This document shows, piece by piece, positions 42,405 to 52,467 of a stretch of DNA of 64,000 bases. The stretch's first letter is position 1, and each line of letters begins with the position of its first letter. The DNA lies in assembly GCF_030317145.1 (NCBI RefSeq), contig NZ_JASZYE010000003.1, positions 1 through 64,000 on the forward strand, in the 5' to 3' direction. Origin of the DNA: Variovorax flavidus (GTDB lineage: Bacteria > Pseudomonadota > Gammaproteobacteria > Burkholderiales > Burkholderiaceae_C). A program made the position numbers and the translations under genes. The notes below the pieces were generated by a model that had not been told where the DNA came from, ran no database searches, and was given only the letters and a program-made list of their open reading frames with translations.

Positions 42405-43385
42405 CTACAAGGTCAGGATGGTGCAACCGGTGGTCTTGCGCGCTTCGAGGTCTCGGTGCGCCTGCTGCACGTCGGCCAGTGCATAGCGCTGGTCGATCGG
42501 GATCTTCACCGCGCCGCTCTCCACGACCGCGAACAGGTCGTCCGCCATCGCCTGTGTGCTCTCGCGGGTCGAAATGTGCGAGAACAAGGTGGGCCGGGTC
42601 ACGTAGTACGAGCCCTTGGCCAAGGTGCCGAGGTTGAAGGCGGCCACCGGTCCCGAACCATTGCCGAAGACAGCGAGCAGGCCGAAGGGCCGCAGGCTCG
42701 CCAGCGAGCCCTCGAAGGTGTCCTTGCCCACCGAGTCGTAGGCCACCTTCACGCCCTTTCCGCCGGTGATTTCCTTGACGCGTTCGGCGAAGTTCTCGGT
42801 GCTGTAGTTGATGGCGTGGGCCGCGCCATGGTCCAGCGCGATCTTGCACTTGGCATCGGTCCCCGCGGTGCCGATGAGTTGCAGCCCCAACGCCTTGGCC
42901 CATTGGCATGCGATCAGCCCCACACCACCCGCCGCGGCATGGAACAGGATGAAATCACCGGGCTGCAGGCCTTCGGCCGGCAAGGTCTTCTTCAGCAGGT
43001 ACTGCGCGGTAAGGCCCTTGAGCATCATGGCGGCGCCGGTCTCGAACGAGATCGCATCCGGCAGCTTGCAGACGCACTTGGCGGGCATCACGCGCAGCTC
43101 GCTGTATGCACCGGGGGGCTGGCTCGCATAGGCCGCGCGGTCGCCGACCTTCAGGTGCGAGACACCCTCGCCCACCGCCTCGATGACGCCGGAGGCTTCC
43201 ATGCCCAGCTGCAGTGGCATGGGAAAAGGGTACAGGCCACTGCGCTGGTAGGTATCGATGAAGTTGAGACCCACGGCCTTGTGGCGGATGCGGATCTCGC
43301 CCGGCCCCGGATCGCCGACTTCGACGTCGACGATCTTCAGTTCCTCGGGACCGCCGTGGCGGTCGATGCGGACGGCTTTGCTCAT
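42405..43385 (-). CDS. NADPH:quinone oxidoreductase (zinc-independent MDR family)
   Basis: 326 residues. The N-terminal GroES-like part starts MSKAVRIDRHGGPEELKIVDV. The Rossmann motif is HAAAGGVGLIACQWAK, the quinone-oxidoreductase form of GxGxxG, and no zinc cysteines are seen. AGGAG stands nine bases before the ATG. It likely reduces small quinones or enones with NADPH. It is divergent from the following EamA gene. Confidence 0.92.
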   Translation of the reverse strand: MSKAVRIDRHGGPEELKIVDVEVGDPGPGEIRIRHKAVGLNFIDTYQRSGLYPFPMPLQLGMEASGVIEAVGEGVSHLKVGDRAAYASQPPGAYSELRVMPAKCVCKLPDAISFETGAAMMLKGLTAQYLLKKTLPAEGLQPGDFILFHAAAGGVGLIACQWAKALGLQLIGTAGTDAKCKIALDHGAAHAINYSTENFAERVKEITGGKGVKVAYDSVGKDTFEGSLASLRPFGLLAVFGNGSGPVAAFNLGTLAKGSYYVTRPTLFSHISTRESTQAMADDLFAVVESGAVKIPIDQRYALADVQQAHRDLEARKTTGCTILTL

Positions 43386-43512
43386 GAATCGTGGCTCCTT
43401 GTGTTGAATATGCGACTCGGCTGGATCGAATCGAGGCGCCTATGCTGCCACGGACTTGAATTCATGGCCCGCTCCCCGGAATGCGGCTTGCGGCCCGGTA
43501 AAGTCCAGCCCC

Positions 43513-44412
43513 ATGCAGCAGCGACTTACTCCGGGCACCGCCCTTCTTCTCACGGTGCCTCCTCTGCTGTGGGCCGGCAATGCGGTCGTCGGCCGGGTGG
43601 TGCGCGATCTCGTCTCGCCCATGTCGCTGAACTTCATCCGATGGCTGCTGGCCTTCATGGTGCTGCTTCCCTTCGCGATGTCCGTGCTGCGCCGCGAGAG
43701 TCCGTTGTGGATGCACTGGAAGCGATTCGCCGTGCTCGGGCTTCTGGGCATCGGCTGCTACAACGCGTTCCAGTACCTGGCGCTGCAGACCTCGACGCCG
43801 ATCAACGTCACGCTGGTCGGCTCCAGCATGCCGCTGTGGATGCTGGCGACCGGGGCCTTGTTCTTCGGCGCGAAGATCACCGGGCGCGCGTTGCTCGGCG
43901 CGGCGCTCTCGATGATCGGCGTGCTGCTGGTGCTCAGCCGCGGCCAATGGGCGCAGCTGCTCGCGATGCGGCTGGTGGCCGGCGATCTCTACATGATGCT
44001 CGCCACGATCTCGTGGGCGTTCTACAGCTGGATGCTGTCGCGCACCCATGAGCCTTCCGAGGTGCGGCGCGACTGGGCGTCGCTGCTGATGGCGCAGATG
44101 GTGTTCGGGCTGGCGTGGTCCGGCGTGTTCGCCGCCGGCGAATGGGCGCTGACCGACGCGCACGTCGACTGGGGTTGGCCACTGGCCGCGGCGCTCGTCT
44201 TCATCACGCTCGGCCCGGCGCTGCTGGCCTATCGATGCTGGGGCGCTGGCGTTCAGCGGGCGGGCCCGCAGACCGCCGGATTCTTCACCAACCTCACGCC
44301 GCTATTTGCCGCATTGCTGTCGGCGGCGTTCCTCGGTGACATGCCGCAGTGGTATCACGGGGCGGCGTTCGTGTTGATCGTGGGCGGGATCTGGGTGTCC
44401 TCGCGCCCATAG
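43513..44412 (+). CDS. EamA/DMT-family exporter
   Basis: 299 residues with ten hydrophobic segments in two EamA repeats (the first with PPLLWAGNAVVGR, the second with LATISWAFYSWML). These proteins export amino acids or metabolites; no specific substrate can be named. The ATG at 43513 follows CCAGCCCC and gives the proper first helix. It ends against the GNAT gene. Confidence 0.9.
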   Translation: MQQRLTPGTALLLTVPPLLWAGNAVVGRVVRDLVSPMSLNFIRWLLAFMVLLPFAMSVLRRESPLWMHWKRFAVLGLLGIGCYNAFQYLALQTSTPINVTLVGSSMPLWMLATGALFFGAKITGRALLGAALSMIGVLLVLSRGQWAQLLAMRLVAGDLYMMLATISWAFYSWMLSRTHEPSEVRRDWASLLMAQMVFGLAWSGVFAAGEWALTDAHVDWGWPLAAALVFITLGPALLAYRCWGAGVQRAGPQTAGFFTNLTPLFAALLSAAFLGDMPQWYHGAAFVLIVGGIWVSSRP

Positions 44413-44416
44413 CGCG

Positions 44417-44908
44417 TCAGCCCGGCAGTGCCACGGCCTGCAAGGACACCAGCTTTTCGCTGGCGCCGACACGCTGGGCGCCGATCTCCCGGAAGCCGAA
44501 GCGTTCGTGAAAACGCCGCGAAGCCTCGTTGGGTGGATCGACGTCGAATTCGCAGGTCACCTGCACAGCCCCGTTGCGCGCCGCGAACGCGAACAGATCC
44601 TGGTAGAGCAACTCCCCGATGCCCCGGTTCCGGCATTCAGCGGAGACCACGACGCGGTCGATGTAGACGAAGCGCTCGCAGTTCGCCGCGAACCAGCGGT
44701 AGTTGGGGCTGTCGTAGGCCGCCCCTTCCGCGAAGGCAAGCAGGAATGCGGCGACCGCTCCGTCGCATTCCACGACGCGGTGGTACGCAGCTTCGGCATG
44801 CAGGTGCTCCAGGCGGTCCCGCGTGAGCGGGGCCAGGAAATGCACCCATGCCTCGTTGAGTTCGAGAATGCGGGGAAAGTCCGCTGGTGTCGCGTCCCGA
44901 ATCACCAT
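44417..44908 (-). CDS. GNAT-family N-acetyltransferase
   Basis: 163 residues. It starts MVIRDATPADFPRILELNEAWV. The acetyl-CoA loop is RNRGIGELLYQDL, and SRRFHERFGFREIG closes the fold. Cytosolic. Last of the five-gene minus-strand unit, 12 bases after the SDR stop. The substrate is unknown, but the context suggests an amine or amino acid. Confidence 0.87.
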   Translation of the reverse strand: MVIRDATPADFPRILELNEAWVHFLAPLTRDRLEHLHAEAAYHRVVECDGAVAAFLLAFAEGAAYDSPNYRWFAANCERFVYIDRVVVSAECRNRGIGELLYQDLFAFAARNGAVQVTCEFDVDPPNEASRRFHERFGFREIGAQRVGASEKLVSLQAVALPG

Positions 44909-44920
44909 CGGCGCATCACC

Positions 44921-45721
44921 TCAGTAGGTCCCAGGATAGGCCCCGCCGTCGGCCAGCACGTTCTGACCCGTCATGTACCCCGCCTGCACGCTGCACAGGA
45001 ACGCGCAGATCGCGCCGAACTCCGCCGACGTGCCGAAGCGGCCCGCAGGAATGCTCTTTTCGCGTGCGGCCCGGACGGTGTTGACGTCCTGGCCCGACTT
45101 CTTGGCGGCGCCGGCCATCGTGCCCTTGAGGCGGTCGGTATCGAAGGAGCCGGGCAGCAGGTTGTTGATCGTGACGCCCTTGCCGGCAATCTCCGAGCGG
45201 GCCACGCCTGCGACGAAGCCGGTCAAGCCGCTGCGTGCGCCGTTGCTCAGCCCCAGGATGCCGATCGGCGCCTTCACCGAGCTGGACGTGATGTTGACGA
45301 TGCGGCCGAATCCGCGTGCGGCCATGCCATCGACCGTGGCCTTGATCAGCTCGATCGGCGTGAGCATGTTCGCATCGACCGCCTTGATCCACGCCTCACG
45401 GTCCCATTCGCGGAAGTCGCCAGGGGGCGGTCCGCCGGCGTTGGTCACCACGATGTCGAAATCCTTGTGCAGCGCGAAGGCTGCAGCGCGACCCTCGGGG
45501 GTCGTGATGTCGGCCGCCACGTGCTTCACGAAAGGCTTGGCGCCGCTCACACCGGCCGCCTCGGCCTGCAGGGTCTTCGCCGCGGCTTCCAGCGCCTCGG
45601 CGCCGCGCGCGACGATCACCACGTTCACGCCCTCGCGCACCAGCGCTTCCGCGCAGCCGTAACCCAGGCCCTTGCTCGCGCCGCACACCAGCGCGGTCTT
45701 GCCTGCAATTCCAAAATCCAT
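44921..45721 (-). CDS. SDR-family oxidoreductase lacking the usual Tyr/Lys pair
   Basis: 266 residues. The cofactor site GASKGLG (14-20) and NAGG (94-97) are intact, and Ser146 sits in NITSSS. Counting on, the catalytic Tyr and Lys places are Ser159 and Arg163 (LSNGAR). This is a recognised atypical SDR subgroup, but catalysis must differ from the standard mechanism or be absent. The gene follows the EamA gene by 16 bases and precedes the GNAT gene. Confidence 0.86.
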   Translation of the reverse strand: MDFGIAGKTALVCGASKGLGYGCAEALVREGVNVVIVARGAEALEAAAKTLQAEAAGVSGAKPFVKHVAADITTPEGRAAAFALHKDFDIVVTNAGGPPPGDFREWDREAWIKAVDANMLTPIELIKATVDGMAARGFGRIVNITSSSVKAPIGILGLSNGARSGLTGFVAGVARSEIAGKGVTINNLLPGSFDTDRLKGTMAGAAKKSGQDVNTVRAAREKSIPAGRFGTSAEFGAICAFLCSVQAGYMTGQNVLADGGAYPGTY

Positions 45722-45737
45722 GTTCTTTCCTTCGGGC

Positions 45738-46658
45738 TCAGCGCCCCATGCGTGTGAATACGAAGATGCCGGCGATCACCAGCGCCGTCCCGGCCGCAAT
45801 CCAAGCGGTGAAGGGTTCGCCAAGGATCACCACACCCATCAGGATGGTCGAGATCGGCCCGACCATACCCGTTTGTGCCGCCATCGCGGGCCCGATGCGT
45901 TCGATCGCCATCATGACGGCAAGGACGGGAACCGCGGTGCACAGCGTGGCGTTGAGGATCGACAGCCAGATCACCTGCGGCGCCACGTCGAAGGCCGCGC
46001 TCATCGGCCGCAAAAGCATGAACTGCACGATGCACAGCAAGCAGGCCACGCTGGTCGCCAGCCCGACGAGCCGCAACGATCCCAGTCGCTTGACGAACTC
46101 GCCGCTCGCGACGAGATAGATGGCATAGCTCACAGCGCTCAGGAACACCAGCAGTGCGCCCCAGGCCGCGGAAGCACTCTGGCCCAGTTGCACTTCATGG
46201 CCGAACACGAGCAGCACGCCCGCGTAGCTGATGGTCATGCCAGCGAACTGCCAGCGGGTGATGCGCCGGCGATAGACGATCCAGCCGAACAGCAGCACCA
46301 GCGTGGGGTTGAGGTACAGGATCAGCCGCTCCAGGCTGGCCGTGATGTAGGCCAGGCCCGCGAAATCGAGAAAGCTCGACAGGTAGTAGCCCGAAAACCC
46401 CAGGCCCAAGACGCCGATCCAGTCCCGCCGCGTGAGCGCCGGCTTGCCGCGCCCGGCCCACCAGGCCATCAGCGCGAACAGCGGCAACGCAAACAGCATG
46501 CGCAGCATGATGAGCGTGACCGCGTCCACGCCGTGGCGGTAGGCCAGCTTGACGATGATCGCCTTGCCGCTGAATGCGATAGCGCCCAGCGTGGCAAGAA
46601 CGAGACCCGGCGCGAGACTCTTGTGAGCTTGTTGCTCCGACGTCGCCTGCAGTGGCAT
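45738..46658 (-). CDS. EamA/DMT-family exporter (in ggt unit)
   Basis: 306 residues, about ten transmembrane helices in two EamA halves (LATLGAIAFSGKAIIVKLAY first, ASAAWGALLVFLSAVSYAIYL second). The ATG at 46658 gives MPLQATSEQQAHKSLAP. It begins eight bases past the ggt stop, so co-transcription is likely. Together with GGT it could move a gamma-glutamyl compound or its cleavage product. This is an inference from position. Confidence 0.88.
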   Translation of the reverse strand: MPLQATSEQQAHKSLAPGLVLATLGAIAFSGKAIIVKLAYRHGVDAVTLIMLRMLFALPLFALMAWWAGRGKPALTRRDWIGVLGLGFSGYYLSSFLDFAGLAYITASLERLILYLNPTLVLLFGWIVYRRRITRWQFAGMTISYAGVLLVFGHEVQLGQSASAAWGALLVFLSAVSYAIYLVASGEFVKRLGSLRLVGLATSVACLLCIVQFMLLRPMSAAFDVAPQVIWLSILNATLCTAVPVLAVMMAIERIGPAMAAQTGMVGPISTILMGVVILGEPFTAWIAAGTALVIAGIFVFTRMGR

Positions 46659-46666
46659 CGAGCGAA

Positions 46667-48280
46667 TCAGAACCCGGCCGCGAGGCCGTCGCGGCGCGCG
46701 TCGCTCGCGGCCACATAGCCTTCGACCGCCGGATCGCCCGCGCGCCAGATGAACTGGCCCGCACCGAAGTCCTGGTAGGAGTCGTTGATGACGTCGACCT
46801 TGTGGCCGAGCGAGCTCAGGCCCTCGACCGTCTTCGGATCCATGGCCGCCTCGACGTTGATCTCCAGGCCCGAGTTGAAGCGCCAGCGCGGTGCGTCGCA
46901 CGCGGCCTGCGGGTTCTGCTTGTAGTCGAGCATGCGCACCAGCGTCTGCATGTGGCCCTGCGGTTGCATGTTGCCGCCCATCACGCCGAAGCTCATCACC
47001 GGGGCACCGTCCTTCGTGAGGAACGCCGGGATGATGGTGTGGAAGGGGCGCTTGCCGGGCGCCACCACGTTCGGGCTCTTGGCGTCGAGGCTGAAGCCGT
47101 GGCCGCGGTTCTGCAGGCTGATGCCGAAGTCAGGCTCCACGCAACCCGAGCCGAAGCCCATGTAGTTGCTCTGGATGAAGCTCACCATCATTCCGCTCTC
47201 GTCGGCCGCGGTGAGGTAGATGGTGCCGCCCTTGACCGGGTTGCCCGCCTTGAAGTCCTGCGCCTTGTTCACATCGATGAGTTTGGCACGCGATGCGAGG
47301 TACGCGCTATCGAGCATCTGCAGGGGCGTCACCTCCATCGACGATGGGTCGGACACATAGCGATAGGTATCGGCGAAGGCGAGCTTCATGGCCTCGATCT
47401 GCAGATGCTGCGAGGCGACCGAGTCGACCGGAATGGAGCCGATGTCGAAGTGCTCGAGGATGCCCAGCGCGATCAGCGCGGCAATGCCCTGCCCGTTCGG
47501 CGGGATCTCGTGCAGCGTATGGCCCCGGTAGTTCTGGGCGATCGGCTCCACCCACTCGGGCTTCCAGCTGGCGAGGTCGCGTACCTTGAGGCTGCCGCCA
47601 TTCGCGCTGGAGAACTTCTCGAGCGCCTCGGCGATCTCGCCGCTGTAGAACGCATCACCCTTGGTCGCCGCGATGGCCTTCAGCGCGCGCGCCGCGGCCT
47701 GGAAGCGGAAGAGTTCGCCGACTTCGGGCGCACGCCCCCACGGCAGGAAGCCCTGCGCAAAGCCCGGCTGCGATTGCAGGATCGGCGTGGCAGCGGCCCA
47801 CTTCTGCTGCACCACCGGGGGCATCAGGTAGCCGCGTTCTGCGATCTCGATGGCCGGGGCCATGAGGTCCGCGAAGGGCAGCTTGCCGAAGCGCTCGGAC
47901 ATCGCGACCCAGCTGCCGACGGCACCCGGCACGGTGACCGAATCGATGCCGCGCTGCGGCGGGGTCCGCGCGTCGGCGCCGTACTTGCGGCTGAAGTAGT
48001 CAGGCGTCCAGGCCTGTGGCGCAGCGCCGGAGCCATTCAGGCCGTGCAGCTTCTTGCCGTCCCACAGGATGCAGAAGGCATCGCTGCCCAGGCCATTGCT
48101 GACGGGCTCGAGGACCGTCATGGCAGCCGCCGTCGCGATCGCGGCATCGACGGCATTGCCGCCCTGGTACAGGATGCGCAGGCCCGCCTGCGCGGCCTGC
48201 GGATGCGATGTCGACACGACATTGCGCGCGAAGACCGGGATGCGAGTCGAGGTGTAGGGGTTTGCGTAGTCGAATTTCAT
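46667..48280 (-). CDS. ggt: gamma-glutamyltransferase family protein
   Basis: 537 residues, N-terminal nucleophile hydrolase made as one chain that cuts itself. The nucleophile is Thr353 in VKGGTIYLTAADESG. Other landmarks are QGGNAVDAAIA and the C-terminal SFGVMGGNMQPQGH. There is no obvious signal peptide, unlike the periplasmic E. coli enzyme, so the mature enzyme may be cytosolic and import may precede cleavage. It cleaves or transfers gamma-glutamyl groups. It starts two bases after the Bug stop. Confidence 0.9.
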   Translation of the reverse strand: MKFDYANPYTSTRIPVFARNVVSTSHPQAAQAGLRILYQGGNAVDAAIATAAAMTVLEPVSNGLGSDAFCILWDGKKLHGLNGSGAAPQAWTPDYFSRKYGADARTPPQRGIDSVTVPGAVGSWVAMSERFGKLPFADLMAPAIEIAERGYLMPPVVQQKWAAATPILQSQPGFAQGFLPWGRAPEVGELFRFQAAARALKAIAATKGDAFYSGEIAEALEKFSSANGGSLKVRDLASWKPEWVEPIAQNYRGHTLHEIPPNGQGIAALIALGILEHFDIGSIPVDSVASQHLQIEAMKLAFADTYRYVSDPSSMEVTPLQMLDSAYLASRAKLIDVNKAQDFKAGNPVKGGTIYLTAADESGMMVSFIQSNYMGFGSGCVEPDFGISLQNRGHGFSLDAKSPNVVAPGKRPFHTIIPAFLTKDGAPVMSFGVMGGNMQPQGHMQTLVRMLDYKQNPQAACDAPRWRFNSGLEINVEAAMDPKTVEGLSSLGHKVDVINDSYQDFGAGQFIWRAGDPAVEGYVAASDARRDGLAAGF

Positions 48281-48282
48281 GC

Positions 48283-49254
48283 TCAGTCCCCTGTGATTTT
48301 TCGTTCAGCGATGATCTTTTTCCACTTGGCAGCATCCTCGGCCACCATGCTCGCGAGTTGTGCCGGCGTGCTCTGGGTGGGCGAGATGCCCAGCCGCGCG
48401 AGCTTGTCGCGCACCTCGGGATCGGCCAGTGCCTGGTTGGCCGCCGTGTTGATGCGCGTGACCATCTCGGCCGCAAGGCCCTTGGGGCCATAGAGGCCGA
48501 ACCAGGTGTTCGATTCGAAGCCCGGCAGGGTGTCGGCAATCGGCGGCAGTTCGGGCGCCAGCGGGCTGCGCTTGAGCGAGGTCACGCCCAATGCGCGCAA
48601 CCGGCCGTCGCGCACATGCGGCATGCCGGTGGGCAGCGAGTCGAACAGCACGTCGACCTTGCCGCTGATCAGGTCGGGAATCGCGAGCGCCGTGCCCTTG
48701 TACGGGATGTGCGTGACGAAGATGCCGGCCTGCGACTTGAAGAGTTCCGCCGTCAGCTGGACGATCGTGCCGTTGCCGCTCGACGCGTAGTTGAGCTTGC
48801 CGGGGTTCTTCCTTGCGTAGTCGATCCATTCGCGCACCGTCTTGGCCGGCGAGCTGTTGGGCACCAGCATGATGCTGGGTGCGTCGCCGACGTGGGCGAT
48901 CGGCGTGAAGTCGTGGACCGTGTCGTAGGGCAGCTTGGGATTGATCCAGGGGCCGATCGAATGCGTGCTCGTGGTCGCCAGCAGCAGCGTGTAGCCGTCG
49001 GGCGCAGCCTTGGCCGCCATGTCGGAACCGATCGCGCCGCCGGCGCCGGGCTTGTTGTCGATGACCAGCGTCGTGCCGAGCTTCTCGCCCATCTTCTGAG
49101 ACAGCGTGCGCGCAAACAGGTCCGTGGCGCCACCGGCCGGGAAAGGAACGATGAGGCGGATCGGCTTGGTTGGATAGCCTTGCGCCAGGCTGGCGGACGT
49201 CGCGGCCAGGCAAAGGGTGGCGGCGATGGCCTGTAGGAACTGGATTCGTTTCAT
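48283..49254 (-). CDS. Bug-family tripartite tricarboxylate receptor (first in ggt unit)
   Basis: 323 residues with a signal peptide (KRIQFLQAIAATLCLAATSASLA). The ligand loop begins YPTKPIRLIVPFPAGGATD; VIDNKPGAGGAIGSD and NYASSGNGT follow. It should bind a small acid in the periplasm. It is first in the unit Bug-ggt-EamA-SDR-GNAT and divergent from a LysR gene. The membrane proteins TctB-TctA lie just beyond that LysR gene in the same orientation. Confidence 0.92.
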   Translation of the reverse strand: MKRIQFLQAIAATLCLAATSASLAQGYPTKPIRLIVPFPAGGATDLFARTLSQKMGEKLGTTLVIDNKPGAGGAIGSDMAAKAAPDGYTLLLATTSTHSIGPWINPKLPYDTVHDFTPIAHVGDAPSIMLVPNSSPAKTVREWIDYARKNPGKLNYASSGNGTIVQLTAELFKSQAGIFVTHIPYKGTALAIPDLISGKVDVLFDSLPTGMPHVRDGRLRALGVTSLKRSPLAPELPPIADTLPGFESNTWFGLYGPKGLAAEMVTRINTAANQALADPEVRDKLARLGISPTQSTPAQLASMVAEDAAKWKKIIAERKITGD

Positions 49255-49315
49255 TTGCTGGATTTTGTCCCCATGGAGAAGCTCGAATGCTATGCAGGGG
49301 CTGAGTATCAAGCCA

Positions 49316-49331
49316 GATAATTTAGCTTATC
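49316..49331. promoter_or_regulatory. LysR-type binding site candidate between Bug and lysR genes
   Basis: GATAA (49316-49320), six bases, TTATC (49327-49331) lies in the 95-base divergent gap, 19 bases before the LysR start. Short AT-rich interrupted palindromes of this kind fit the T-N11-A rule for LysR regulators. No confident promoter could be assigned. Confidence 0.5.
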
Positions 49332-49349
49332 GAACTATGAGCGATTCTT

Positions 49350-50276
49350 ATGCCAAAGTCCGGCACTGAAGAGATCTCCCTGCAGCAGCTCCGGGCCCTC
49401 GCGGCCGTTGCCGAATCGGGCAGTTTCACGCTGGCGGCGGAGAGCCTGCAGCTCACGCAACCCGCGATCAGCCACCTGATCAAGCGCATGGAGCACGAAC
49501 TCGGTCAGCCCCTGGTGGTGCGCGGCCGCCGCATCCGCATGACCAACGCGGGCGAGATGATGGTCGACACGGCCGTGCGCGCGCTTCGGCTGATCGATGA
49601 ATCGGTCGACGCGTGCCGGTCGCAATCGCAGCTTCGGGAGGGACGCGTGGTGCTGGCGGTGGGCCACCTCACGGCGGGCGCGCTGCTGCCGCCATTGCTG
49701 AGCCGCTTCTCGCAACAGCATCCCTCGCTGGCGACCGCGCTGCTCGACAGCACGGCGGAACAGATGATCTCGCGGATCCTCTCGCAAGAGGCCGACCTGG
49801 GCTTCGGGTCGGACATCGGGCAGAAGCATTCCGAGTTGGCGACAGAGCCGTTGTTCACCGAGCGCATGAGCCTTTTCGTGCGCGACGACCATCCGCTGGC
49901 GCAGCGGGTGGTGATCGATGCAAAGCACCTGGACGCGCTGCCCTTCATCCACGTGAACCCGGACGCCAACATCTGGCGCTCCGTCAGCCGGCAGTTGTCG
50001 AGCGTGGCCAACGTGTACCCGCGCGTGGTGCATCACGTGTCGATGCTGTCGACGGCCTTCGGGCTCATCCAGTCGGGTGCGGGCGTCTCGCTGCTGCCAC
50101 GCTACGTGGAGGTGCTGATGCCCGGCAACCTGCGGGCGGTGGCGGTGACGCGCCCCACGCTCGAATACCCGGTCGTCGCCGTAAGGCTGGCGAAGCATCC
50201 GCTCAACCCTGCCGCCAGGGCATTCCTGGCCATGGCCCGGCAGCACATGAAGCCAACCCGCATCTCCAGGCCCTGA
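49350..50276 (+). CDS. LysR-family transcription regulator
   Basis: 308 residues. The N-terminal winged helix is LQQLRALAAVAESGSFTLAAESLQ (cut here) with the recognition helix TQPAISHLIKRME. The remainder is the periplasmic-binding-like effector domain. It faces the Bug-ggt unit and most likely controls it and itself. The convergent tctA terminator lies right after its stop. Confidence 0.92.
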   Translation: MPKSGTEEISLQQLRALAAVAESGSFTLAAESLQLTQPAISHLIKRMEHELGQPLVVRGRRIRMTNAGEMMVDTAVRALRLIDESVDACRSQSQLREGRVVLAVGHLTAGALLPPLLSRFSQQHPSLATALLDSTAEQMISRILSQEADLGFGSDIGQKHSELATEPLFTERMSLFVRDDHPLAQRVVIDAKHLDALPFIHVNPDANIWRSVSRQLSSVANVYPRVVHHVSMLSTAFGLIQSGAGVSLLPRYVEVLMPGNLRAVAVTRPTLEYPVVAVRLAKHPLNPAARAFLAMARQHMKPTRISRP

Positions 50277-50330: not shown

Positions 50331-51848
50331 TCAGGCCTCTTCCTCGTGGAAGGCTTCCTCGCGCTTGGACTTCACGGCCGGCAGCAGCACGATGATCAAC
50401 AGCAGCAGCGCAGCAGCCAGCAGGCCTGCCGAGATCGGACGGGTGACGAACACGATCCAGTCGCCGCGCGACAGCAGCAGCGCACGGCGCAGGTTCTCTT
50501 CCATCATCGGCCCCAGGATGAAGCCCAGCAGCAGCGGCGCAGGTTCGCATCCCAGCTTGAAGAAGCTGTAGCCGATGAAACCGAAGATCGCCACCATCCA
50601 GATGTCGAAGGTGTTGTTGTTGGTCGAGTACACCCCGATCGCGCAGAACAGCACGATGGCCGGGAACAGGAACTTGTAGGGCACCGACAGCAGCTTGATC
50701 CACATGCCGATCAGCGGCAGGTTCAGGATGATGAGCATCGCATTGCCGATCCACATCGAGGCGATCAGGCCCCAGAAGAGTTCGGGGTTGCTGGTCATCA
50801 CCTGCGGGCCGGGCTGGATGTTGTGGATGGTCATCGCACCCACCATCAGCGCCATCACCGCGTTGGGCGGAATGCCCAGCGTCAGCAGCGGGATGAAGGA
50901 GGTCTGCGCGCCGGCGTTGTTGGCCGACTCGGGTGCTGCGACGCCGCGGATGTTGCCCTTGCCGAAGGGCACTTCGCCCGGATGCAGCTTGGTCTTCTTC
51001 TCGATGGTGTAGGCCGCGAAGGCCGCCAGCAGCGCACCGCCGCCGGGCAGGATGCCGAGCGCCGCGCCGAGGGAGGTACCGCGCAGCACCGCAGGCAGCA
51101 TGCGCTTGAAGTCTTCCTTGGTCGGGAACAGGCCGGACACCTTGGCGGTGAACACTTCCCGCTCGTGCTCGGGGCGCGACAGGTTGGCGATGATTTCGCC
51201 GTAGCCGAACACACCCATGGCGATGGTCACGAAGCCGATGCCGTCGGTGAGTTCAGGGATGTCGAAGCTGAAGCGCGCGACGCCCGAGTTCACGTCGGTG
51301 CCGACCAGACCCATCAGCAGGCCCAGCACGATCATCGCGATGGCCTTGAGCAGCGAGCCCGAAGCCAGCACCACGGCGCCGATCAGGCCCAGGATCATCA
51401 GCGAGAAGTATTCGGCCGGACCGAACTTGAAGGCCAGTTCGGTCAGCGGCGGTGCGAAGGCCGCCAGGATCAGCGTGCCGACGCAACCTGCGAAGAACGA
51501 ACCCAGGCCGGCAGCTGCCAGCGCCGGGCCGGCCCGCCCCTTCCGGGCCATCTGGTAGCCGTCGATGACGGTCACCACGGACGACGATTCACCGGGCAGG
51601 TTGACCAGGATGGCGGTGGTGGAACCGCCGTACTGCGCGCCGTAGTAGATGCCGGCCAGCATGATCAGCGCCGACACGGGGGGCAGCGCGTAGGTGGCGG
51701 GCAGCAGCATCGCGATGGTCGCGACGGGGCCGATGCCCGGCAGCACGCCGATCAGCGTGCCCAGAATACAACCGACCAGGCAGTACAGCAGGTTGGTGAA
51801 GGTGAAGGCGACGCCAAAACCCAGCGAGAGATTGGTAATGAGATCCAT
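50331..51848 (-). CDS. tctA: tripartite tricarboxylate transporter large membrane subunit TctA
   Basis: 505 residues, about 12 hydrophobic segments. The conserved GVLPGIGPVATIAMLLPATY (TctA motif) and YGGSTTAILVNLPGE are diagnostic. GAGGA stands before the ATG. It forms the secondary transporter with TctB and a Bug receptor. It follows tctB by ten bases. No receptor gene is in its own operon. Confidence 0.94.
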   Translation of the reverse strand: MDLITNLSLGFGVAFTFTNLLYCLVGCILGTLIGVLPGIGPVATIAMLLPATYALPPVSALIMLAGIYYGAQYGGSTTAILVNLPGESSSVVTVIDGYQMARKGRAGPALAAAGLGSFFAGCVGTLILAAFAPPLTELAFKFGPAEYFSLMILGLIGAVVLASGSLLKAIAMIVLGLLMGLVGTDVNSGVARFSFDIPELTDGIGFVTIAMGVFGYGEIIANLSRPEHEREVFTAKVSGLFPTKEDFKRMLPAVLRGTSLGAALGILPGGGALLAAFAAYTIEKKTKLHPGEVPFGKGNIRGVAAPESANNAGAQTSFIPLLTLGIPPNAVMALMVGAMTIHNIQPGPQVMTSNPELFWGLIASMWIGNAMLIILNLPLIGMWIKLLSVPYKFLFPAIVLFCAIGVYSTNNNTFDIWMVAIFGFIGYSFFKLGCEPAPLLLGFILGPMMEENLRRALLLSRGDWIVFVTRPISAGLLAAALLLLIIVLLPAVKSKREEAFHEEEA

Positions 51849-51858
51849 GGTGTCGTCC

Positions 51859-52347
51859 TCAGCCCGTGATGAAGGTAGGCCAGACCTGGATCTGCAGCTT
51901 CAGTGCCCAGATGAAGGCGATGTAGCTGCCGACAGCCAGAACCGTGGCAAGAATCAGCACGTTGCGCAGGTTGAACTCACTGCCCGCCAGGCTGGAGATG
52001 ATCACCAGCGCATAGATCGCGATGATCATGCCCATGGCCGGCACGCCGATGCTCGGCAGACCGCCGAGCAGCAGGCCGAAGGCAAGGTTGGCGCCGATGA
52101 TGTAGACCACCTGCTTCCAGGCCCATTTGCCGATCGGCTCGCCGTCCTCGGTCTCGACCGTGAGGCCGGTGAACATGATGGCGAGGCCGATGATGGCCAT
52201 CAGGATGCCGAGCATGAGCGGGAAGTATCCCGGCCCCATGCGGGCGCCGTTGCCGACGTTGTACGTCGTCGCGCCCCATGCGAATGCGACTCCGACGACG
52301 GTGAACATCACCCCCGAGAAGAAGTCTTTTTGACTCTTGATTTTCAC
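51859..52347 (-). CDS. tctB: tripartite tricarboxylate transporter small membrane subunit TctB
   Basis: 162 residues, four transmembrane segments, starting KIKSQKDFFSGVMF as TctB does. A GTG at 52347 with GGAGA seven bases before it is favoured over a GTG four codons earlier at 52359, because the family begins there. The MGPGYFPLMLG motif is typical. The 120-base region to the gspE-like stop on the right should hold the promoter. Confidence 0.9.
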   Translation of the reverse strand: MKIKSQKDFFSGVMFTVVGVAFAWGATTYNVGNGARMGPGYFPLMLGILMAIIGLAIMFTGLTVETEDGEPIGKWAWKQVVYIIGANLAFGLLLGGLPSIGVPAMGMIIAIYALVIISSLAGSEFNLRNVLILATVLAVGSYIAFIWALKLQIQVWPTFITG

Positions 52348-52467
52348 GAACGTCTCCACGAAGAAATTTCGATCGGAGATTGTGTGGTCAGGCAGAAGTC
52401 AGGCGAATGTGGATTCCACTAACCGGCGGATCAGGGTATTCCCGGGACCTGGCAGCGCCAACCCCGG

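Follow-up and report, generated by a model that had tools for sequence, protein, structure and literature searches.

The window analyzed here, a stretch of 64,000 nucleotides from Variovorax flavidus (contig NZ_JASZYE010000003.1), contains a locus in which TctA, TctB and the periplasmic binding protein Bug (TctC), the subunits of a tripartite tricarboxylate transporter (TTT), are encoded close to an enzyme of the Ggt fold. These genes probably take up and split some amide other than a gamma-glutamyl compound, because the importer adjoins a Ggt-like enzyme without the gamma-glutamate pocket. On balance, we lean towards the reading that TctBA and Bug import a carboxylated amide, which is then hydrolyzed in the cytosol by the Ggt-fold enzyme.

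According to this reading, TctB–TctA together with Bug would form a secondary TTT importer whose substrate is a small carboxylate with an amide (or similar acyl) bond. The enzyme of the Ggt fold would remain in the cytosol and cleave itself before Thr353; with this residue, it would hydrolyze the imported compound, giving an acid plus either an amine or ammonia. A conserved divergent promoter under the control of a LysR regulator would drive the Bug–ggt–EamA–SDR transcript. EamA and the short-chain dehydrogenase/reductase (SDR), which appear to be a separate conserved pair sharing the locus in the family, may remove or process a product. The original prediction had combined Bug, ggt, EamA, SDR and a GNAT acetyltransferase into one five-gene pathway for a gamma-glutamyl or amino compound.

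Active site and location of the Ggt-fold enzyme

The active site was evaluated via an alignment of the window enzyme and 165 non-identical homologues of more than 40% identity against E. coli Ggt (166 sequences). The PF01019 domain was matched with 492 bits, and the position of E. coli T391 was occupied by Thr (Thr353 in the window enzyme) in 166/166 sequences. A loss of the Thr nucleophile was considered and ruled out, as a one-residue shift was evident when the sequences were aligned with HMMER and MAFFT. The set of residues that contact the gamma-glutamyl group in E. coli Ggt, which is expected of a gamma-glutamyltransferase (GGT), was not found in the window enzyme: R114, N411, Q430, D433, S462 and S463 corresponded to S84, Y373, R392, G395, H414 and T415, respectively. 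These replacements were widespread in the alignment. The R114 position was Ser in 164 of the 166 sequences, and the N411 position was Tyr or Phe in every one. Arg (Arg392) replaced Q430 throughout (166/166), Gly replaced D433 in 141/166, and His replaced S462 in 156/166. Moreover, the position of Tyr444 in the lid loop was a gap in all 166. In PMC4568574, the changes of R114 to S88 and N411 to Y378 are given as clade differences for the 'B h' protein, and S462 is mapped to Ile, whereas the present alignment has His.

The score of the window enzyme did not reach the equivalog cut-off of TIGR00066 (330.7 vs 357.85 bits). In the second Ggt of the same genome, the corresponding positions were R, T, N, D, S and S, with E at the Q430 position, and the N-terminus was signal-like. 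Judged by its aligned pocket, the window enzyme is not a gamma-glutamyltransferase, and the gamma-glutamyl substrate originally proposed was not supported, since the pocket residues were replaced. The best solved chain for the enzyme was 2nlz (E 8.6e-157), which is named cephalosporin acylase in the PDB. By this closest sequence, by Ser for Arg114 and by Tyr for Asn411, the predicted protein is of the YwrD/2nlz type; we take 2nlz to come from B. halodurans and YwrD to group with it.

Periplasmic export is a feature of most Gram-negative GGTs. No signal peptide was seen in the window Ggt by simple hydropathy, the only measure applied, with an N-terminal value of 1.13 vs 1.97 for E. coli Ggt and 2.17 for the canonical GGT of the same genome. 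The open frame has 545 codons, of which 537 are used, and there is no room for a signal peptide because only 8 open codons lie above the start. The N-terminal values of the homologues (median 1.13; highest 2.02, in Deinococcus) say little, because they were measured from the start of the tblastn match and not from the true gene start.

Oxoprolinase/hydantoinase-type genes were observed near the Ggt gene in Ketogulonicigenium and S. alexandrii (loci L179 and L182), and an acetamidase/formamidase gene was observed near it in Deinococcus (L225). Such neighbors hint at amides or lactams as substrates.

Importers adjoining the Ggt gene

All three TTT subunits were recognized in the window by Pfam. 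The TctB–TctA genes lie just past the LysR gene on the minus strand (50331–52359), as had been predicted, and the proposal that they encode the membrane partner of the Bug receptor is likely correct. The genome held 116 Bug/TctC matches and 4 TctA (PF01970) matches, one of the 4 being the window TctA. The coupling to the Ggt gene gives a handle on the use of this one of the four permeases.

The link between a Ggt gene and an importer recurred in other lineages. On plasmids of Sulfitobacter sp. SK025 and Dinoroseobacter shibae, the order was Bug–TctB–TctA–Ggt, and the TctA and Ggt genes overlapped by 17 bases and 1 base, respectively. The same order was found in Oceanisphaera. The TctA proteins of these three were 32–37% identical to the window TctA, and those beside Ggt at loci L205, L207 and L215 were 33–36% identical to it. 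Two plasmids from Comamonas and one from Comamonadaceae carried a Bug–Ggt pair. Furthermore, the importer could be of another type. The Ggt gene stood behind a dipeptide-type ATP-binding cassette (ABC) importer in Paraburkholderia and Deinococcus deserti, and more distant Ggt relatives stood behind other ABC importers in Rhizobium and Pseudosulfitobacter. An amino-acid ABC set faced the Ggt gene in Shinella, and a Dpp set lay nearly 2 kb from it in Roseivivax. Searches of the open-licence PMC literature gave no paper connecting this type of enzyme with TTT importers. The recurring link leads to a testable role for YwrD-type proteins.

The proximity of importer genes was compared between 40 loci picked by hand from the match lists (20 at order level and 20 at class/phylum level) and 24 canonical GGT loci, which were taken at order level only. 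A TTT or ABC part lay within 1.5 kb in 14/20 order-level and 10/20 class/phylum-level loci vs 2/24 control loci, and both control matches were an ABC ATPase only. A TTT/Dpp binding protein or permease lay within 1.5 kb in 21/40 vs 0/24 loci (Fisher p 4e-6); counting these on the same strand only gave 18/40 vs 0/24 (p 3.5e-5), and counting them within 1 kb gave 17/40 vs 0/24 (p 8e-5); these p values are a guide only, because the controls were order-level, the loci were hand-picked and kinship was uncorrected. The flank was shorter than 1.5 kb in 13 of the 24 control loci and in one test locus; the control flanks were about 1.39 kb or more, except for one of 0.85 kb.

Conservation of the locus and its parts

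The layout described in the original prediction was confirmed. Open reading frames and their starts placed Bug, ggt, EamA, SDR and GNAT in one minus-strand series with gaps of 2, 8, 16 and 12 bases, the Pfam families matched, and the LysR gene faces the series in divergent orientation (Table 1). At the sequence level, this arrangement supports the operon-like look of the genes.

Table 1. Features of the TctBA–LysR–Bug–ggt locus, with positions in the window.
Feature	Position	Strand	Evidence
TctB, small membrane subunit of the TTT	51859..52359	-	PF07331 8.7e-16
TctA, large (permease) subunit of the TTT	50331..51848	-	PF01970 2.8e-158
LysR regulator, divergent from Bug	49350..50276	+	PF00126/PF03466
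LysR–Bug intergenic region with conserved dyad/promoter-like blocks	49255..49349	.	47-sequence alignment including the window
Bug/TctC periplasmic binding protein, signal-peptide-like N-terminus	48283..49254	-	PF03401; N-terminal hydropathy 2.29
Ggt-fold hydrolase, YwrD/2nlz type, predicted nucleophile Thr353	46667..48280	-	PF01019 492 bits
EamA/DMT-family transporter, half of the EamA–SDR pair	45738..46658	-	PF00892
SDR, dinucleotide motif, N160-GAR-S164 replacing YxxxK	44921..45721	-	closest solved chains 5vps, 5idx, 5va8
GNAT acetyltransferase	44417..44908	-	PF00583

Conservation was evaluated in 20 same-genus loci selected among the genomes of the genus that the ggt query matched. TctB, TctA, Bug, ggt, EamA and SDR were all present in 20/20, and the order Bug–ggt–EamA–SDR was kept in 20/20, indicating more than chance. 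LysR stood between TctA and Bug in 12 loci; in the remaining 8, the genes from TctB to SDR were collinear without an intervening LysR. Among 80 named loci, the 65 with enough flank had TctB (59), TctA (62), Bug (60), EamA (64) and SDR (62) near ggt, and any LysR occurred in 47. The GNAT gene was found in 1/20 same-genus and 1/65 named loci, the same genome both times. The gene set of the original prediction was thus conserved for Bug, ggt, EamA and SDR, with GNAT falling away. GNAT was rejected as a member of the unit, as the loci examined contained it in no case other than the window and the closest relative, and it is probably a lineage-specific passenger. Two further genes accompany the locus: a second gene for a DMT transporter (EamA2, 43456–44412) in convergent orientation, which was a neighbor in 36/65 named loci, and a qor-like oxidoreductase gene (42405–43385), which was a neighbor in 52/65.

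The best named record for the window ggt was Variovorax sp. J22R24 (98% identical). The ggt query matched 98/100 same-genus genomes (E 1e-60), 110/150 same-family and 68/200 same-order genomes (both E 1e-140), and 62/398 same-phylum genomes (E 1e-120). At order level, canonical GGT was rarer than the YwrD type, with matches in 23/200 (E 1e-120) vs 68/200 genomes. In 20 loci from other genera of the family, TctA was found in 13, EamA in 14 and SDR in 12. A second Ggt-like paralogue of 28–30% identity also adjoined a Bug gene at L083, L085 and L088, and a second Ggt-like match of the same identity range lay downstream of the main ggt at L058, L151 and L166.

Gene distances were measured in 150 family genomes, where "near" denotes a distance within 8 kb; 15 ggt rows of 49–56% identity were dropped, and closeness can be hidden by broken contigs. 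These genomes contained ggt in 99 cases, TctA in 114, EamA in 126 and SDR in 123. EamA and SDR were the tightest pair, being near each other in 93 of the 111 genomes having both. The corresponding values were 49/87 for ggt–TctA, 58/92 for ggt–EamA and 51/91 for ggt–SDR, and ggt was near all three in 39/99. The fetched stretches of four small genomes (2.4–2.8 Mb; L184–L187) held EamA and SDR together without TctBA or ggt, and in 3/4 a second DMT gene and qor lay downstream of the pair. Outside the family, EamA adjoined SDR without ggt in 5/20 sampled loci. Hence, EamA–SDR behaves as a separate pair that often stands without ggt, and its closeness to ggt may be a matter of inheritance only. With GNAT in a single named locus and EamA–SDR behaving as a pair of its own, the single five-gene pathway found no support.

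The SDR is degenerate, as had been noted, in that N160 and S164 stand in place of YxxxK, and the classical catalytic motif is absent from the window protein. Among 121 aligned sequences, N160 was invariant, and position 164 was Ser in 118 and Thr in 3. The protein is therefore under constraint and not decaying. The glycine-rich dinucleotide motif and the NAG motif were both present (S16, G18, L19, G20, N94 and A95 in 121/121; G96 in 120).

The spacer between LysR and Bug had the consensus cATAGTTgaATAAgc.g.ATTATCTGGcTTGATGc in 47 sequences, with TGCaTAGCAT further on (upper case, >=90%, i.e., at least 90%; lower case, at least 60%; case partly simplified). This conservation fits a putative divergent promoter controlled by LysR. 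A promoter/terminator scan gave no excess above shuffled sequences.

Competing explanations and known systems

Several observations weigh against the import-and-hydrolysis reading. Importer parts were absent within 1.5 kb in 6/20 order-level and 10/20 class/phylum-level loci, three further test loci had an ABC ATPase match only, and three were counted on the opposite strand only. Neither a TTT nor a Dpp match was obtained within 1.5 kb in Erwinia, S. alexandrii or Ketogulonicigenium; in the last of these, TctBA stood about 5 kb from the Ggt gene. No importer adjoining the Ggt gene was listed in the Halorussus record. The loci were selected manually, and kinship means that related genomes do not count as independent cases. 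TctB–TctA–ggt occurs without a recognized Bug in some loci. In the family, 33 of the 99 genomes with ggt had no TctA, EamA or SDR near it. Another 15 genomes lacked a ggt orthologue but had TctA next to EamA or SDR; a more distant ggt (51–56% identical) was located elsewhere in 10 of them.

The best surviving alternative, which we still regard as rather unlikely, is an old syntenic block in which TctBA, Bug–ggt and EamA–SDR were inherited side by side with unrelated functions. The EamA–SDR pairs that stand alone in the four small genomes and in the loci outside the family agree with it, as does the great number of Bug genes (116 matches). However, Ggt is again linked to importers, of different kinds, in further lineages, and the link is more frequent than in the control set of canonical GGT loci. 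An inherited block is probably the right explanation for EamA–SDR, but not for TctCBA–Ggt.

A pathway for gamma-glutamyl peptides or glutathione, in which Bug would act as the receptor for a gamma-glutamyl compound and Ggt would split off the glutamate, was judged quite improbable. The PF01019 match of 492 bits would suit it, and some Ggt homologues adjoin peptide-type importers. The closest solved Bug chain by E-value was 2dvz (E 2.1e-71), which we take to be BugE, a glutamate binder. However, the contacts were replaced (S84, Y373, R392, G395 and H414), with the Y444 gap in all aligned sequences; the other GGT of the genome keeps R, N, D and S together with a signal-like N-terminus; the TIGR00066 score was too low; and the related YwrD of B. 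subtilis has no assigned role according to a 2021 review (PMC8062742). Genes of this kind are commonly annotated as gamma-glutamyltransferase family protein in the plasmid records examined, a name that suggests glutathione chemistry, but the pocket does not support it.

Similarly improbable is the view that many of the 116 Bug proteins share the window TctBA as their membrane unit, so that the nearness of TctBA to ggt would have no particular significance: the 116 Bug vs 4 TctA matches, the mostly higher conservation of TctA than Bug across the genus and a shared-permease idea published for Bordetella speak for it (PMC5994714, which reports an orphan Bug excess and at most four membrane parts), but a general-purpose permease is hard to reconcile with the separate TctCBA set of Roseobacteraceae, because its TctA gene overlaps the Ggt gene.

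Import and cytosolic hydrolysis of an amide, the reading preferred here, can be compared with several known systems. The 2nlz protein shares the Thr nucleophile and the Ser replacing Arg114 with the window enzyme. Its relative YwrD is described as an intracellular Ggt-like protein of B. subtilis in PMC8062742; the difference from this role-less protein is that the window gene is tied to an importer.

Among the named enzymes, HpxW was the most alike in its small subunit. HpxW makes oxalate from oxamate, and we take the chain 5hft, a gamma-glutamyltranspeptidase in the PDB table, to be this oxamate amidohydrolase. The small-subunit motifs FIQS.Y..FGSG, QNRG..FSLD, GK.PFHT and MGG..QPQ were shared, and the small subunit scored 107 bits against 5hft chain B, whereas the best canonical GGT gave 66 bits. 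The large chain differed, with 122 bits vs 147 bits for a canonical GGT, and the segment around Arg114 scored 33 bits vs 49 bits for canonical GGTs; the likeness did not extend to the large subunit. A far more speculative proposal, the long shot among the readings given here, is that YwrD-type Ggt is the cytosolic half of import-and-cleave systems with a swappable importer (TTT or dipeptide ABC) and acts on oxalyl-type amides, where the invariant Arg392 would hold the carboxylate and Thr would carry the oxalyl group. The hints are thin, namely the small-subunit likeness to HpxW and the oxalate loss linked to LmbA. In PMC4780272, the Ggt-annotated LmbA is proposed to cause this loss by glutamyl transfer and not as an oxalyl enzyme. 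If true, the oxalyl-amide proposal would provide the first role for YwrD-type proteins and a ligand class for one of the four TctBA sets.

The window set resembles other TctCBA importers in having all three subunits with Bug as the receptor; it differs in the LysR gene between TctA and Bug, as in 12/20 same-genus loci. In PMC8102459, Variovorax TctC proteins were selected for likeness to AdpC, and 'glutamyl' is never mentioned. A parallel in arrangement is found in E. coli, where the gene of a dipeptidase proenzyme likewise adjoins the genes of a binding-protein importer: iaaA, which encodes isoaspartyl dipeptidase, lies immediately before gsiABCD, which encodes the importer of glutathione. 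The hydrolase family of IaaA differs from the Ggt-fold family, and gsiABCD encodes an ABC importer, whereas the importer in the window is a TTT.

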